Of a stretch of DNA of 64,000 bases, positions 2,989 through 11,662 are shown one piece after another; position 1 is the stretch's first letter; every line of letters starts with the position of its first letter. Both the position numbers and the translations under genes were made by a program. The stretch is from NCBI GenBank assembly GCA_021771185.1, contig JAETPN010000001.1:130366-194365 (forward strand), written 5' to 3'. The notes beneath the pieces are model-generated. The model saw nothing but the letters and a program-made list of their open reading frames with translations, was not told where the DNA came from and did not search any database. This stretch comes from Bacillota bacterium. Lineage in GTDB: Bacteria > Bacillota_I > Bacilli_A > RF39 > UBA660.

Positions 2989-3942
2989 TTATTCAACAGT
3001 TACTGTAACTTGTCCATAGGTCCCTGTTACTGCTGGGGTACCTGGGCCCATACCAAGAATATTACTCCAATCAAATGGTTTTCCCGTTTTATTAACAATT
3101 TTTGTTAATGTTGTATTATTATAAAATGCTCTTTCACCAATACTTGTGACATTCTCTGGTATAACCACACTTGTTAGTAGATTATAAGAAAACGCAGCAG
3201 ATTCAATACTTGTTACACTATCTGGTATTACCACACTAGTTAATTGATTAGGGATAATTTCAGGACCACTTGATAATGAACCATCATGTGAAAAAGCGAA
3301 GGCCCCAATTTGGGTCACAGTGATTCCTTTAATCGTACTTGGAATGACGATATCTGTATCCTCTCCATTATAACCTGTAATCAGACCGTTCCCATTCATT
3401 GCAAAAAGATCATCTGGTGTTGTTATGATACTATTCGATGTTTTTTGTTCATAATTTAGTTTAAAAGTTATACTCGTACTTGTAGATGGCACAGTCGTTG
3501 CATCTGCCTTCCATACTACTTTTATTTGAATCTTTTTTTGCTCACCAGCATTTAATGGAACTATTCCATCAATGCCTATCGCAGAATAAGTAATATCCTC
3601 GGAACCATTAGAACCATCTTCTAAGAATTCACTACCAACTAATTCAGCATCAATGGTACCTTTATTTTCTACGATTATATCATATAACGCACTACTTCCT
3701 GGTTTTTCTAAGTCTACTGTAAAATTTGCTGACGTTGAATCAACAACTTCTTTGGTAATTGTTTTCGCATTTACCATCATATTTTCTTCAATTTTTGTGA
3801 TTTCAATTTTAAAATCTCCCATAACTCCTGATGTCCCTGTAATCGTTAAGATCTGACTTAAAGTGGCATATCCTACAGCTAATCCAACAGTTATTACACA
3901 AAGGGCACCGATGATCATTTTTTGTTTTTTTCTTGTTTTCAT
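2989..3942 (-). CDS. BspA-like leucine-rich-repeat surface protein (short paralogue)
   Basis: A 317-residue exported protein. Residues about 9-30 are a hydrophobic anchor with no lipobox, followed by TITGTSGVMGDF and a beta-rich domain containing VDLEKPGSSALYDI and ENKGTIDA, which recalls camelysin/TasA-type beta-sandwiches. About three LRR_5 (BspA/TpLRR) repeats of the form LTSVVIPxSVTSIxxxAF occupy residues 230-285. The C-terminus (TGKPFDW ... VTGTYGQVTV) is shared with the longer paralogue at 10161-11609. BspA-type repeats commonly mediate binding to host or matrix ligands; that role is inference. The promoter holds a G9 tract (see separate entry), suggesting on/off expression. Confidence 0.85.
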   Translation of the reverse strand: MKTRKKQKMIIGALCVITVGLAVGYATLSQILTITGTSGVMGDFKIEITKIEENMMVNAKTITKEVVDSTSANFTVDLEKPGSSALYDIIVENKGTIDAELVGSEFLEDGSNGSEDITYSAIGIDGIVPLNAGEQKKIQIKVVWKADATTVPSTSTSITFKLNYEQKTSNSIITTPDDLFAMNGNGLITGYNGEDTDIVIPSTIKGITVTQIGAFAFSHDGSLSSGPEIIPNQLTSVVIPDSVTSIESAAFSYNLLTSVVIPENVTSIGERAFYNNTTLTKIVNKTGKPFDWSNILGMGPGTPAVTGTYGQVTVTVE

Positions 3943-3965
3943 ATTCTTACTCCTATTCTAAAATC

Positions 3966-3996
3966 ATTATATCCCCCCCCCATTTCAAATTGTCAA
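3966..3996 (-). promoter_or_regulatory. Promoter with a G9 homopolymer in the -35/-10 spacer
   Basis: On the minus strand TTGACA (3996-3991) and TATAAT (3971-3966) are both perfect consensus hexamers but are 19 bp apart instead of 17. The spacer contains nine consecutive G (3981-3973). The paralogous gene at 10161-11609 has the same -35, -10 and AGAATAGGAGT leader but a 16-bp spacer with no G run. A slippage-prone tract in this position is the classic layout for transcriptional phase variation. Confidence 0.8.
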
Positions 3997-4112: not shown

Positions 4113-4262
4113 TTAAAAAAGTGGTAAAATCATTAAAGTTCTCATATAACTTCCTATATTAATTCCCAGAGAATAAATGAAATAACATACATAACCAAAA
4201 GCTGGTAAAAAAAGAGCTAAAGAAAAAATAAATAACAACCATTCTTTTATTTTAATGGACAT
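4113..4262 (-). CDS. Small membrane protein, candidate bacteriocin immunity protein
   Basis: A 49-codon gene. Its ATG at 4262 overlaps the last 16 bases of the second prepeptide gene in another frame, suggesting translational coupling. The product starts MSIKIKEWLLFIF and is almost entirely hydrophobic (one or two membrane segments) with a basic GSYMRT stretch near the end. Small membrane proteins directly behind class II bacteriocin genes are usually self-immunity factors; that assignment rests on position and size only. The terminator follows within 10 bp of the stop codon. Confidence 0.6.
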   Translation of the reverse strand: MSIKIKEWLLFIFSLALFLPAFGYVCYFIYSLGINIGSYMRTLMILPLF

Positions 4263-4414
4263 AGATTTTGTTCTCCTATTCTTCTTAATGCACTTCCTAG
4301 GCTACGACCAATATCTACAAAGGCACTAACTCCTCGAACAATATAATTAATCATACTAGCACTAATACTCCCACCTTCAATACATTCTAATTCTGCTTTT
4401 GTTAATATTTTCAT
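4247..4414 (-). CDS. Double-glycine bacteriocin prepeptide 2
   Basis: A 55-residue prepeptide. A longer reading frame reaches 4459, but ATG 4414 is preferred because AAAGGA lies 6 bp upstream and it starts the leader MKILTKAELECIEGG exactly. Cleavage after GG gives a 40-residue mature peptide beginning SISASMINYIV, with an amphipathic basic segment (DIGRSLGSALRRIG) that includes a GRSLG GxxxG motif, and a single cysteine near the end (NLCPLK). GxxxG motifs and pairing with a neighbouring peptide are typical of two-peptide class IIb bacteriocins. Ten bases separate it from the first prepeptide gene. Confidence 0.85.
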   Translation of the reverse strand: MKILTKAELECIEGGSISASMINYIVRGVSAFVDIGRSLGSALRRIGEQNLCPLK

Positions 4415-4424
4415 AGGATCCTTT

Positions 4425-4565
4425 CTATCTACATGGAAGTGGTCGAACAAATCCATCAATCACTCCAATAAGAAACGCAACGCCTGCAGTAATGATTAAT
4501 CCTGTAGTAAAACCAATTCCACCACCTTCAATCTTCTGTAATTCTTCATTCTTTAATTGTTTCAT
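4425..4565 (-). CDS. Double-glycine bacteriocin prepeptide 1
   Basis: A 46-residue prepeptide. ATG 4565 lies inside the end of the accessory gene, so the two frames overlap. The leader MKQLKNEELQKIEGG is followed by a 31-residue mature peptide starting GIGFTTGLIITAG. It is glycine-rich and strongly hydrophobic, contains a GVIDG GxxxG motif and ends in a basic, cysteine-containing tail (RPLPCR). The match to the LSxxELxxIxGG leader pattern, and the C39-peptidase transporter upstream, make export as a bacteriocin or signal peptide very likely. The two peptides probably act together. Confidence 0.85.
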   Translation of the reverse strand: MKQLKNEELQKIEGGGIGFTTGLIITAGVAFLIGVIDGFVRPLPCR

Positions 4566-5001
4566 ATACATCCTTTTCTAACTTCTGTAAAATGATTCTA
4601 AAAAGTGTCGTTTTATCTCCTTCAAAATATACCTCTACCTTATTATTTTCTATTTTTAATTCTTTAGGTAGAGAAACACTCAAATACACTTCATGAAAAA
4701 CATCTAAAGAAGCATCAATGGTATAAGCTTCCTTGATTTTGGTATAGGCTAAAGGATAGCTTTTTTCATTAATCCATACGTTTTTACGATTTAATTTACC
4801 TACCTCTTTTTCACTACTATAAATTTTAACATAATATTCATTTTCTATTTTCGTAACAAAACCCATGTAATATTGTTTCTGTTTAAATGGAATACATAAG
4901 CTTAAAAAGAAGCTAAAAAGTAGAAAAATTATAAAGCTCAACCAAAGTAAAATATATCGTGGTGTTTTGCTTTCAATCACAAGCCATTTATTTTGATACA
5001 T
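4546..5001 (-). CDS. Bacteriocin transport accessory protein (short HlyD-like)
   Basis: A 151-residue protein with one membrane segment at about residues 15-38 and an external beta-rich domain (MGFVTKIENEYYVKIYSSEKEVGKL, in the sense of a lipoyl/beta-barrel-like region, then LSVSLPKELKIENNKVEVYF). It overlaps the transporter gene by 14 bases and the first prepeptide gene by 20. Position and topology match accessory proteins that bridge C39-type ABC exporters to the cell surface, but it is far shorter than full HlyD proteins (about 450 residues) and lacks the coiled coil. Function is inferred from context. Confidence 0.6.
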   Translation of the reverse strand: MYQNKWLVIESKTPRYILLWLSFIIFLLFSFFLSLCIPFKQKQYYMGFVTKIENEYYVKIYSSEKEVGKLNRKNVWINEKSYPLAYTKIKEAYTIDASLDVFHEVYLSVSLPKELKIENNKVEVYFEGDKTTLFRIILQKLEKDVYETIKE

Positions 5002-7066
5002 CTTGAATTATTTTTCCATTTCTTAGTTGAATTTTCCGATCAAATAAGTCTAGATTATCAAAACGATGTGAAACAATAATAAAGGTCTTATCTTTATAAT
5101 GATCAAACATGTTCTTTAATATACGCCGTTCTAAATTCGTATCCATTTGGCTAAATCCTTCATCAATAAGAATAAAATGTGCAGGACAGAGCAAATGACG
5201 AGCTAAAAGAATTCGTTGTTTTTCCCCTCCTGATAAGTTAAATCCATCCTCTTCAATAAACATTTGATATCCTAAAGGATTTTTAGAAACAATTTTATCT
5301 ACTTCACAAAGTTGAATCACTTGTTTTAAAGTTTCTTCCTCATAATCACGTCCCATAACAATATTATCCATCAATGTTGTTGTAAAAAGTAATTCCTTTT
5401 GTGAAAGATATGATAGATTCCCTTTTAACGCACTGGAATGAAAATGATGAATAGAAATATTATTAAATAAAATTTGTCCACTTGAAGGCTCATAATAATT
5501 CATGAATAATTTTAATAAGGTACTTTTTCCTGAGCCACTAGAACCCATTAATAAAATGTGTTCACCATGGTGAATAGATAAAGAAATATCGCTTAAAATC
5601 CTTTTTTGGTAACGAAGATAAGTGACCTTTTTTAAACGAATATGGGTTAAAGTCAGTTGATTAAATGACGTTTCTTTTTTCTGTTCTATAAAAAGATCTA
5701 ATAATCGTTCTAATGAAGTTTCAGCATCTTTCAATTCCAATTCCAGTTGTATCATATGATCAAGTGGATCAAAAATAAATGAAATAAGGGATTGAGATAA
5801 AAAAATACTACCAATAGATAATTTTTGTTGATAAATCAAATACACTTGGCCTCCTAAAATGCCACAATAGGCAAGATTTTTTATCAACGATATCACAAAA
5901 TCTTTGATATGAAACTTTTTTTCTAAACTAAAGTTTGTTTGTACAACAGAAAGTAATGCTTGTTCTAATTTAGCTTGTTGTTGGTCTTCCAAAAATAAAC
6001 CTTTCGTACTTTCCATTCCTAAAATATTTTCTGTTATAAAAGAGGATAAGTGACTTTGATCTTGTTTTAAAATATAAAGTTGTTTTTTCAACCAAGGTTG
6101 AAAGCAAAAATGAAATGTAAAGTATAAAAGAACTGTAATCAATACACTTATACCTAACGTTTGGTGAATCATGAATAAAAAGAAAATGGAAATAATACAA
6201 AGCAAACTATCAACAAATAAAACTAATATAAAATCAATAAACGTATTTTTTAATCGTATCATATCATTGATTCGATTCATAATATCCCCTGTTGTTTTGT
6301 TACGATAATAGATATAAGGAAGATGAAGCAAGTGTTCAAAAGTTTCTAAAAATAAGCGAACGTTCATTTTGCGATTCAGATAAGAAATTAAATGATTGCG
6401 ACAAAAATGACTAATATCACGAAAAGTATATAAAATGATAAAGAATAGAATCAAACAATATAATAAATAGGACTCCCGGTGTTTTGACAAGAATTCAACC
6501 ATAAGTTTTAAGTAAAAGGAAGTCCCAATTGAAAGGAGTGTAATTGCTAAAGATAAAAAGAATAACTGCCAAATCATTTTTCTATCTGTTAAAATATAAT
6601 TTAAAAAGAACGATAAAACATGTTTTTCTTTATGAAAATCAATTTTTTTCTGAGGATAAAATAATAATAAAACTTTTGACCATTGCTTTTCAAAACTAGA
6701 AAAAGAAGCTTTTGTGAATCCCTTTGCAGGATCAGCAATCCATACTACTTTTTTAGAAAATGATATTTTATAAATTACAACATAGTGTCCACCACATTCA
6801 ACATTTATATGAGCTATACAGGGTGTAAACACCTCATGTTTCATCTTTAACATATTTTCACAAGCTACTCCTCGTGCATTAAATCCAATTTCTTTTCCAG
6901 CTTCAATTAATTGATATGCTGTTACACCTTTTTCTGTTGTATGTGTTAATTTTTGTAGTTCTCTTAAACTATAATTGCCATGATAATATCGAATAATCAT
7001 TAACAAGCAACAGATTCCACATTCCTTTTGATCGTGTTGACGTACCAACGGAAATTTTTGAAACAC
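4988..7066 (-). CDS. Peptidase C39-containing ABC exporter for double-glycine peptides
   Basis: A 692-residue bacteriocin processing and export protein (ComA/LagD type). The start is GTG 7066 behind AGGAGGTG. The N-terminal C39 peptidase contains catalytic C17 (QHDQKECGICC), the histidine in GGHYVVIY and the aspartate in IADPAKG. The membrane domain with about six segments spans residues 160-440. The ATPase domain has Walker A GSSGSGKST, signature LSGGEKQR, Walker B LIDEG and the switch histidine in VSHR. It should cleave the two prepeptides behind GG while exporting them. It is the first gene of the operon ending at 4113. Confidence 0.93.
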   Translation of the reverse strand: MFQKFPLVRQHDQKECGICCLLMIIRYYHGNYSLRELQKLTHTTEKGVTAYQLIEAGKEIGFNARGVACENMLKMKHEVFTPCIAHINVECGGHYVVIYKISFSKKVVWIADPAKGFTKASFSSFEKQWSKVLLLFYPQKKIDFHKEKHVLSFFLNYILTDRKMIWQLFFLSLAITLLSIGTSFYLKLMVEFLSKHRESYLLYCLILFFIILYTFRDISHFCRNHLISYLNRKMNVRLFLETFEHLLHLPYIYYRNKTTGDIMNRINDMIRLKNTFIDFILVLFVDSLLCIISIFFLFMIHQTLGISVLITVLLYFTFHFCFQPWLKKQLYILKQDQSHLSSFITENILGMESTKGLFLEDQQQAKLEQALLSVVQTNFSLEKKFHIKDFVISLIKNLAYCGILGGQVYLIYQQKLSIGSIFLSQSLISFIFDPLDHMIQLELELKDAETSLERLLDLFIEQKKETSFNQLTLTHIRLKKVTYLRYQKRILSDISLSIHHGEHILLMGSSGSGKSTLLKLFMNYYEPSSGQILFNNISIHHFHSSALKGNLSYLSQKELLFTTTLMDNIVMGRDYEEETLKQVIQLCEVDKIVSKNPLGYQMFIEEDGFNLSGGEKQRILLARHLLCPAHFILIDEGFSQMDTNLERRILKNMFDHYKDKTFIIVSHRFDNLDLFDRKIQLRNGKIIQDVSK

Positions 7067-10160: not shown

Positions 10161-11609
10161 TTATTCTGCTTTTACTGTTATTGTTCCATAAGTTCCTGTT
10201 ACAGCAGCTGGAACACCTTTTCCTTTTCTAGTAATATCATACCAATCAAAAGCACGTCCTGTTTTGTTAATAATCGTTGTTAAGTTTGGATTATTATAAA
10301 GCGCTATAGCTCCAATCTTTGTCACATTTTGTGGTATTTCTATTTGTGTTAATTGATTATTTGAAAATGCATCATATTCAATACTTGTTAAACTAACTGG
10401 TAAGCTTACACTAGCTAATTGATTATCAGAAAATGCAGTATCGCCAATACTTGTTACACCTTCAGGAATTTCTATACTAACTAATTTATTTTTAAAAAAA
10501 GTGCCATTATCAATAGTTGTTAAATTTTTTGATAAAATAACACTATTTAACTGATTGGTTGCAAAAGCTCGATATTCTATACTAGTTACGCTGTCTGGTA
10601 TAACAACACTCGTTAATAAATTATTAGCAAAAGCATCAGACCCAATACTTACTACACTATTTGGTATAACAAGCTCTGTTAATTTATTATACGCAAATGC
10701 ATTAGAGCCAATAGTCTTTACAGAATCAGGTATGACTATACTTGTTAATTGATTATTTTGAAATGCAAAATAATTAATACTTGTAAGATTCGCTGGAAGT
10801 TCTACACTAGTTAATTGATTATTTGCGAAAGCATAATCTTCAATCTTCGTTACACTATTAGGTATCTTTACACTTTCTAAACTACTATAATTGAACGCAG
10901 ATCCTTCAATAGTTGTTACACCATTTGGTATAACAACACTTGTGATATTCTTATCTGCTAGTGCATTTTCTCCAATGGAAGTAACTTTTATACTGTTAAT
11001 TTCACTTGGAATAACTACTTCTTTATCTTCACAAGTATAACCTGTGATGGTTCCTTGATCATTGATTGTAAAACAAGATGCTGGTGTAATAATATTTCCA
11101 TCGCCCTGTTGTTCATAATTTAATTTTAAAGTTAGGCTTTTACTGGTCGTTGGAATGGTGGTTGCACTTACCTTCCATACAACCTTTACTTGAAATGTTT
11201 TTTCTTCTCCAGCATTTAGGGGATCTCCCTCTTTAATTCCGTCAATAGAATAAATGATATCTACAGGCTCTTTTTCATTGCTTTCATCTAGTCCTGTGAT
11301 ACTTGTAAGTATAGCATCAATGCTTCCTTTGTTTTCTACCGTTACATCGTAAACAGCGCTAGAACCAGGTTTCTTTAAATCAACCGTAAAATTCGCTGTC
11401 GTTGAACCAATCCCACCAGTAGTTATTGTTTTAGAATTTACCATCGTTCCTTCTTCAATCTTCGTAAATTCAATTTTAAAATCACCCACAACAGAAGAAG
11501 TCCCATTAATTTGTAATAACTGCGTTAAAACAGAATATCCCAAAGCAATCGCAACAATTAAAAAACATATCATCGCAATGGTTACTTTTTTATTTTTGAA
11601 AATTTCCAT
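10161..11609 (-). CDS. BspA-like leucine-rich-repeat surface protein (long paralogue)
   Basis: A 482-residue exported protein. The membrane anchor is at about residues 9-30, then QINGTSSVVGDF and a beta-rich domain like that of the 2989-3942 protein. From about residue 195 to 430 there are roughly ten 23-residue LRR_5 repeats with the pattern LTSVVIPDSVTSIxxxAFxxNQ. The C-terminus (TGRAFDWYDI ... VTGTYGTITV) is shared with the short paralogue. Repeats are near-identical in places and could recombine to change length. Unlike its paralogue it has a conventional 16-bp promoter spacer (TTGACA 11662-11657, TATAAT 11640-11635), so expression should be constant. Confidence 0.88.
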   Translation of the reverse strand: MEIFKNKKVTIAMICFLIVAIALGYSVLTQLLQINGTSSVVGDFKIEFTKIEEGTMVNSKTITTGGIGSTTANFTVDLKKPGSSAVYDVTVENKGSIDAILTSITGLDESNEKEPVDIIYSIDGIKEGDPLNAGEEKTFQVKVVWKVSATTIPTTSKSLTLKLNYEQQGDGNIITPASCFTINDQGTITGYTCEDKEVVIPSEINSIKVTSIGENALADKNITSVVIPNGVTTIEGSAFNYSSLESVKIPNSVTKIEDYAFANNQLTSVELPANLTSINYFAFQNNQLTSIVIPDSVKTIGSNAFAYNKLTELVIPNSVVSIGSDAFANNLLTSVVIPDSVTSIEYRAFATNQLNSVILSKNLTTIDNGTFFKNKLVSIEIPEGVTSIGDTAFSDNQLASVSLPVSLTSIEYDAFSNNQLTQIEIPQNVTKIGAIALYNNPNLTTIINKTGRAFDWYDITRKGKGVPAAVTGTYGTITVKAE

Positions 11610-11634: not shown

Positions 11635-11662
11635 ATTATAAACCTTATTCCGTGTTTGTCAA
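11635..11662 (-). promoter_or_regulatory. Promoter of the long BspA-like gene
   Basis: Consensus TTGACA and TATAAT with a 16-bp mixed-sequence spacer; the leader AGAATAGGAGT is also found in front of the short paralogue. Serves as the comparison for the G9 promoter. Confidence 0.75.

Follow-up and report, generated by a model that had tools for sequence, protein, structure and literature searches.

A G9 tract in the promoter spacer of a BspA-type surface-protein gene as a candidate switch for phase-variable expression in an uncultured family of gut Bacillota

To our knowledge, most known cases of poly-G promoter switching come from a small number of pathogens. In Mycoplasma hyorhinis, the Vlp genes switch by changes in tract length within the promoter spacer of each gene, the tract being poly-A, and the C-tract of Bordetella fim is not known to be a -35/-10 spacer tract. 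An earlier note on the DNA described here had named porA and Bordetella fim as precedents for slippage in promoter spacers; fim, as another type of tract, drops out of this comparison. The porA precedent stands (PMC7864442): in Neisseria meningitidis porA, as in gonococcal fetA, a homopolymeric G/C tract between the -35 and -10 boxes determines, through its length, their spacing and hence how strongly a surface-protein gene is transcribed (PMC7864442, PMC5320596). The gonococcal fetA gene, whose tract ranges from C10 to C14 between strains, is a better parallel than fim (PMC5320596). Both porA and fetA are single loci in Gram-negative pathogens, whereas the promoters considered here belong to a low-GC family of uncultured Bacillota, number up to about 30 per genome and are known from sequence alone. 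The Vlp lipoproteins, for which combinatorial variation has been described (cited in PMC11868660), share with them the organisation as a multigene surface-protein family with one promoter-spacer tract per gene; they differ in that Vlp combines poly-A tracts with repeat lipoproteins, while here poly-G tracts precede proteins with signal and beta domains and C-terminal domains of various kinds, BspA LRR among them. In Treponema pallidum, poly-G tracts of at least 8 nt likewise lie upstream of surface antigen genes (tpr) and affect their transcription (PMC7864442), although the tract of tprL overlaps the -10 region instead of the spacer. A literature search of open-licence papers gave no direct earlier report of poly-G promoter phase variation in lineages such as those treated below.

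The locus lies in a 64-kb stretch of genomic DNA from a Bacillota bacterium, here called the window, and comprises the following features, all on the minus strand:

2989..3942, minus strand: surface protein of 317 aa with an N-terminal helix (4-23), a beta-rich region (33-166) and BspA-type LRR (LRR_5), from ORF, profile search, model and Foldseek
3942, minus strand: start codon ATG of this short LRR gene, from sequence
3949..3959, minus strand: leader AGAATAGGAGT with Shine-Dalgarno sequence, common to paralogues, from sequence and promoter comparison
3966..3971, minus strand: -10 box TATAAT, from sequence
3972-3990, minus strand: spacer of 19 bp, from sequence
3973..3981, minus strand: G9 tract within the 19-bp spacer, from sequence
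3991..3996, minus strand: -35 box TTGACA, from sequence
10161..11609, minus strand: long LRR_5 paralogue of 482 aa, used as control with a tract-less promoter, from ORF and profile search
11635..11662, minus strand: promoter of the long paralogue, TTGACA-16 bp-TATAAT with no G run, from sequence

The minus-strand promoter sequence reads ...CATTGACAATTTGAAATGGGGGGGGGATATAATGATTTTAGAATAGGAGTAAGAATATG; from 3996 to 3940 it consists of TTGACA-ATTTGAAATGGGGGGGGGA-TATAAT-GATTTTAGAATAGGAGTAAGAATATG, in which both hexamers are perfect and the G9 (3981-3973) stops one base short of the -10 box. The predicted promoter thus contains a homopolymeric G/C tract of at least 7-8 nt between -35 and -10, and the earlier description of TTGACA and TATAAT boxes 19 bp apart with nine G between them is exact on the minus strand at 3996-3966. 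It is equally accurate for the long paralogue, which is about 55-60% identical to the short one over the aligned part and has the same boxes (TTGACA 11662-11657, TATAAT 11640-11635) and the same leader with a 16-bp spacer and no G run.

The window protein matches LRR_5 (PF13306) with 46.1 bits against a gathering cut-off of 27.7 and thereby has BspA-type LRR; the best Foldseek matches of its model are the bacterial LRR surface proteins 6mlx, 4gt6 and 4h09. The model, with a mean pLDDT of 66 for the complete protein, comprises the helix (4-23), strands within 33-166 and a confident LRR part, with low confidence in the N-terminal part. The product had been described as an exposed LRR protein, which captured one part of it: besides the LRR_5 match it has an N-terminal transmembrane or signal helix and a beta-rich region of about 130 residues that is also present in paralogues. 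With its N-terminal helix and LRR_5 repeats, we count it as an exposed or secreted protein, and it is presumably displayed at the surface. The source genome encodes a SipW-type signal peptidase (TIGR02228, 83.8 bits, G000:C3:18073) flanked by two members of the surface family. Membership of the family in TasA/CalY (camelysin) was considered and set aside as not established, since the Pfam search (E up to 0.001) gave no Peptidase_M73 (PF12389) match for the window protein, the paralogue L043 scored 14.2 bits, below the cut-off of 22.5, and the model gave no decisive structural match. The region just upstream of the G-tract gene encodes two small peptides, each with a double-glycine leader (ELECIEGG-SISAS and ELQKIEGG-GIGFT; 4247-4571, minus strand), immediately before a C39-peptidase ABC exporter at 4988-7066, an arrangement that looks like a class II bacteriocin locus.

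Apart from the G9 at 3973-3981, the window contains no run of at least eight G, and the observed number of 8-mer matches was matched in 2 of 100 shuffles of the window. The complete assembly (1.24 Mb, 40 contigs) contains 15 runs of G6, two of G7, three of G8, two of G9 and none longer. Both G9 runs lie in promoter spacers, and the genes behind them are paralogues. The second (C5:44482-44490) is located upstream of the window gene's closest paralogue elsewhere in the genome (59% identity). These two promoters can be aligned well, starting shortly before the -35 box and continuing into the coding region, and are distinguished by an extra A after the tract, with G9 in both, so that their spacers measure 19 and 18 bp, respectively. 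A third paralogue (L039) has the purine-rich, non-slippery AGGGAGAAGG at the tract position, with a spacer of 18 bp. The occurrence of the G9 promoter in the window is non-random. Elsewhere in the source genome, a G8 run (G000:C32:3224-3231, L006) is situated about 5 nt before an ATG, in Shine-Dalgarno position, and the ORF behind it resembles, by eye, a beta-lactamase-type serine hydrolase; a translational length switch is possible there.

The same layout, defined as a -35 box, 7-10 nt, about G8-G13 and then TATAAT, recurs widely. With up to three mismatches allowed, 51 of 291 host-family genomes contain the pattern TTGACA-N8-G9-N-TATAAT, at up to 19 sites each, whereas the reversed-pattern control gave one match in each of two of the 291. 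A search for G7-TATNNT in ten chosen genomes gave up to 34 sites per genome, and eight of nine genomes of genus g133 have 3-30 G-run promoter sites. In a phylum sample searched with exact boxes, 14 of 392 genomes matched and none matched the control. Among GTDB representatives, at least 118 stretches match, from Clostridia, Bacilli, Saccharibacteria, Spirochaetes, Streptobacillus, Helicobacter and others. Since the -35 boxes (TTGCAA, TTGCCA, TTGAAA, TTGACA), flanks and gene families differ between these taxa, the feature common to them is the G run adjoining the -10 box. A phage origin was rejected, with one match among 2.9 million viral contigs. Many G-run promoters of G078, G151, G673 and others sit within 100 bp of a contig end that cuts off the sequence downstream, which suggests that the leader and the gene start recur as near-identical copies at which short-read assemblies break; the true number per genome may therefore be higher than counted. 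A near-identical core, TTGACAAAAATATGC-G10/11-TATAAT, is present in G613:C17, G596:C47 and G538:C121 (TATAC in G538), three different families, and a promoter-gene unit may have been transferred horizontally; G613 itself has G10 and G11 versions of this core at a distance of 7 kb.

The genes behind G-run promoters are predicted to encode mostly secreted or membrane proteins. Among the GTDB matches listed, a hydrophobic segment at the N-terminus is encoded by 57 of the 76 first genes, compared with 140 of 445 background ORFs of the same DNA (p=1.2e-12). In the host family, the products often have a brief basic segment at the start, then a single hydrophobic helix, and after it commonly a domain resembling that of the window protein.

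Spacer lengths of G-run promoters differ from those of ordinary ones. In 626 kb of the GTDB matches listed, perfect promoters without a G run peak at 17 bp (16 bp: 7; 17 bp: 10; 18 bp: 4; 19 bp: 1; 20 bp: 2), whereas G-run promoters of the same DNA peak at 18-19 bp (16 bp: 18; 17 bp: 2; 18 bp: 21; 19 bp: 32; 20 bp: 11). The resulting shortage of 17-bp spacers (2 of 84 G-run promoters among these matches; p=2.5e-6 for 17 bp against other lengths, G-run versus non-G) is given less weight because the GTDB scan demanded at least nine G and is thus biased against 17-bp spacers; in the less biased phylum scan they account for 4 of 25. That sample, which includes tracts from G7 upwards (15 bp: 2; 17 bp: 4; 18 bp: 9; 19 bp: 7; 20 bp: 3), is still shifted upward (at least 18 bp versus non-G promoters, p=0.0016). 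These distributions indicate that assembled alleles tend to be one or two bases over 17. For porA, 17 bp is the optimal spacing, and a published summary states that transcription is lost on reduced spacing (PMC7864442). By analogy with porA, and given that 17 bp is the commonest spacer of ordinary promoters in the same DNA, the ON state would be expected at 17 bp.

Uninterrupted tracts vary in length within single genomes: G151 has 8-10 G, G078 mostly 10-11, and G209 10-14 with a single tract of 18. Four of the 13 same-genome promoter pairs whose flanks of 41-50 nt are identical differ, each by one G; lengths are unequal in 8 of 23 pairs when up to one flank mismatch is allowed and in 62 of 158 when up to five are allowed. 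These proportions may be too high if the flanks have undergone gene conversion or the assemblies contain errors at G runs. The pairs L208/L216 (G9/G10), L204/L212 (G9/G10) and L361/L374 (G11/G10) are true paralogues, as their upstream or coding sequences diverge. Instability is not universal, since one promoter class of G137 is invariant, with A+G9 in all 14 paralogous copies. For one single-copy G-run gene of G078, no orthologue for a length comparison was found in its genus. As indirect evidence from assembled sequences, these data support tract-length instability in the relatives. At the window locus, the tract length comes from one assembly and one allele, and both tracts of its own genome are exactly G9. 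In Campylobacter, where tracts of at least eight G are mutable, 9G is the most frequent length and makes up 52% of a large collection (PMC6321876), so a length of nine G is nothing unusual for a mutable tract.

We consider transcriptional phase variation of the porA/fetA type, by a slipping spacer tract that would act as an on/off or graded switch, the best explanation of the window G9, with a probability of roughly 70%. The earlier proposal of phase-variable expression is thus upheld in part: in its favour are the recurring tract-promoter layout, its association with genes for secreted and membrane proteins, and tract lengths that differ between near-identical promoters of relatives and change faster than the flanks, and against it stand the single assembled allele at the window locus, the exact G9 of both source-genome tracts, an A beside the tract rather than a G as the difference between the window and C5 promoters, the invariant promoter class of G137, and the possibility of consensus errors in assemblies at long G runs. 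We propose the following hypothetical sequence of events, in which (i) the G9 serves as a contingency tract for slipped-strand mispairing during replication in the spacer of a consensus sigma-A promoter; (ii) gain or loss of a G would alter the -35/-10 distance, 19 bp in the sequenced allele, and with it transcription; (iii) this 19-bp promoter, being the sequenced majority allele, is probably weak or inactive; (iv) with one or two G fewer (18 or 17 bp), the gene for the SipW-type LRR surface protein would be transcribed more strongly; and (v) the window locus, as one of a family-wide promoter set, would contribute to mixed surface phenotypes in the population.

The main rival holds that the G run is a fixed cis-element, such as a G-rich spacer, an extended -10 or a regulator site, which marks a surface-protein regulon and whose length is conserved for binding or geometry. 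We regard this as unlikely but worth serious weight. It would account for exactly G9 at both source-genome loci, for the unchanged A+G9 of the 14 G137 promoters and for the repetition of one promoter class on one gene family within a genome. It does not sit well with lengths of 8-14 behind similar flanks in other genomes, with single-G differences between promoters with identical flanks, or with flanks, -35 boxes and gene families so diverse between taxa that only the G run adjoining the -10 box is common. The proposal that the tract came about by chance or is what remains of a defunct promoter, with no part in regulation, appears very improbable: L039 indicates that a tract can decay, yet the window promoter has perfect hexamers, a conserved leader and an intact ORF, its layout recurs family-wide, and two G9 promoters contrast with well under one G9 run estimated from the 15 G6 and two G7 runs.

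A different use of G9 is seen in the congeners G001 and G002, which have 17 and four G9 runs, respectively, most of them upstream of the same surface-protein gene family. Here the G9 lies upstream of the -35 box (CAT-G9-TATNTG-N3-TTGA...), and 19 of 21 elements fold as a 13-15-bp stem (z -2.5 to -6.4) in which the G9 arm pairs, by G-C and G-U, with a pyrimidine tract of the promoter spacer; A-interrupted tracts (GGGGGGAGG, GGAGGGGGG, GGGGGAGGG) mostly keep length 9. The element looks like a terminator-like hairpin overlapping the promoter, and its pairing explains the constant G9 length, for which reason we rejected the uniform G9 of G001 and G002 as a sign of a fixed element everywhere; other genera vary. 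These G9-led hairpins, mostly with a 7-nt loop, and their U-tract extend over the -35 box and spacer, for example at L082, L083, L094 and L150, and their arms covary between loci (TATTTG/CAAATA, TTATTG/CAATAA, TATC/GATA); they are possibly terminator-promoter fusions or RNA regulators. The source genome has one such copy (G000:C17:267092, L005), with G8 and poor folding. That the window G9 is itself the 5' arm of such a hairpin or terminator, its length set by base pairing as in the folding and interrupted congener elements, is the least probable reading and largely refuted, because the tract lies downstream of the -35 box, has no pairing arm, and the window promoter region shows no such hairpin and folds no better than shuffles (z +1.05). 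The two uses of G9 should therefore not be merged.

Under the preferred reading of a slipping promoter spacer, the mechanism is already known; what is of interest is its scale in an uncultured gut family. More tentatively, and with somewhat less than even confidence, we suggest that uncultured gut Bacillota of the host family practise genome-wide combinatorial antigenic variation, in which up to about 30 SipW-type paralogues would each have their own poly-G spacer, mostly of 18-19 bp (weak or off), and slippage towards 17 bp would turn them on. Beyond the host family, the layout occurs here and there in numerous further lineages, most of them associated with the gut. If the tracts slip, these commensals would diversify their surfaces by replication slippage, which ordinary metagenomic reads can test at hundreds of loci without cultivation, and consensus MAG sequences would capture one arbitrary state of many switchable promoters.
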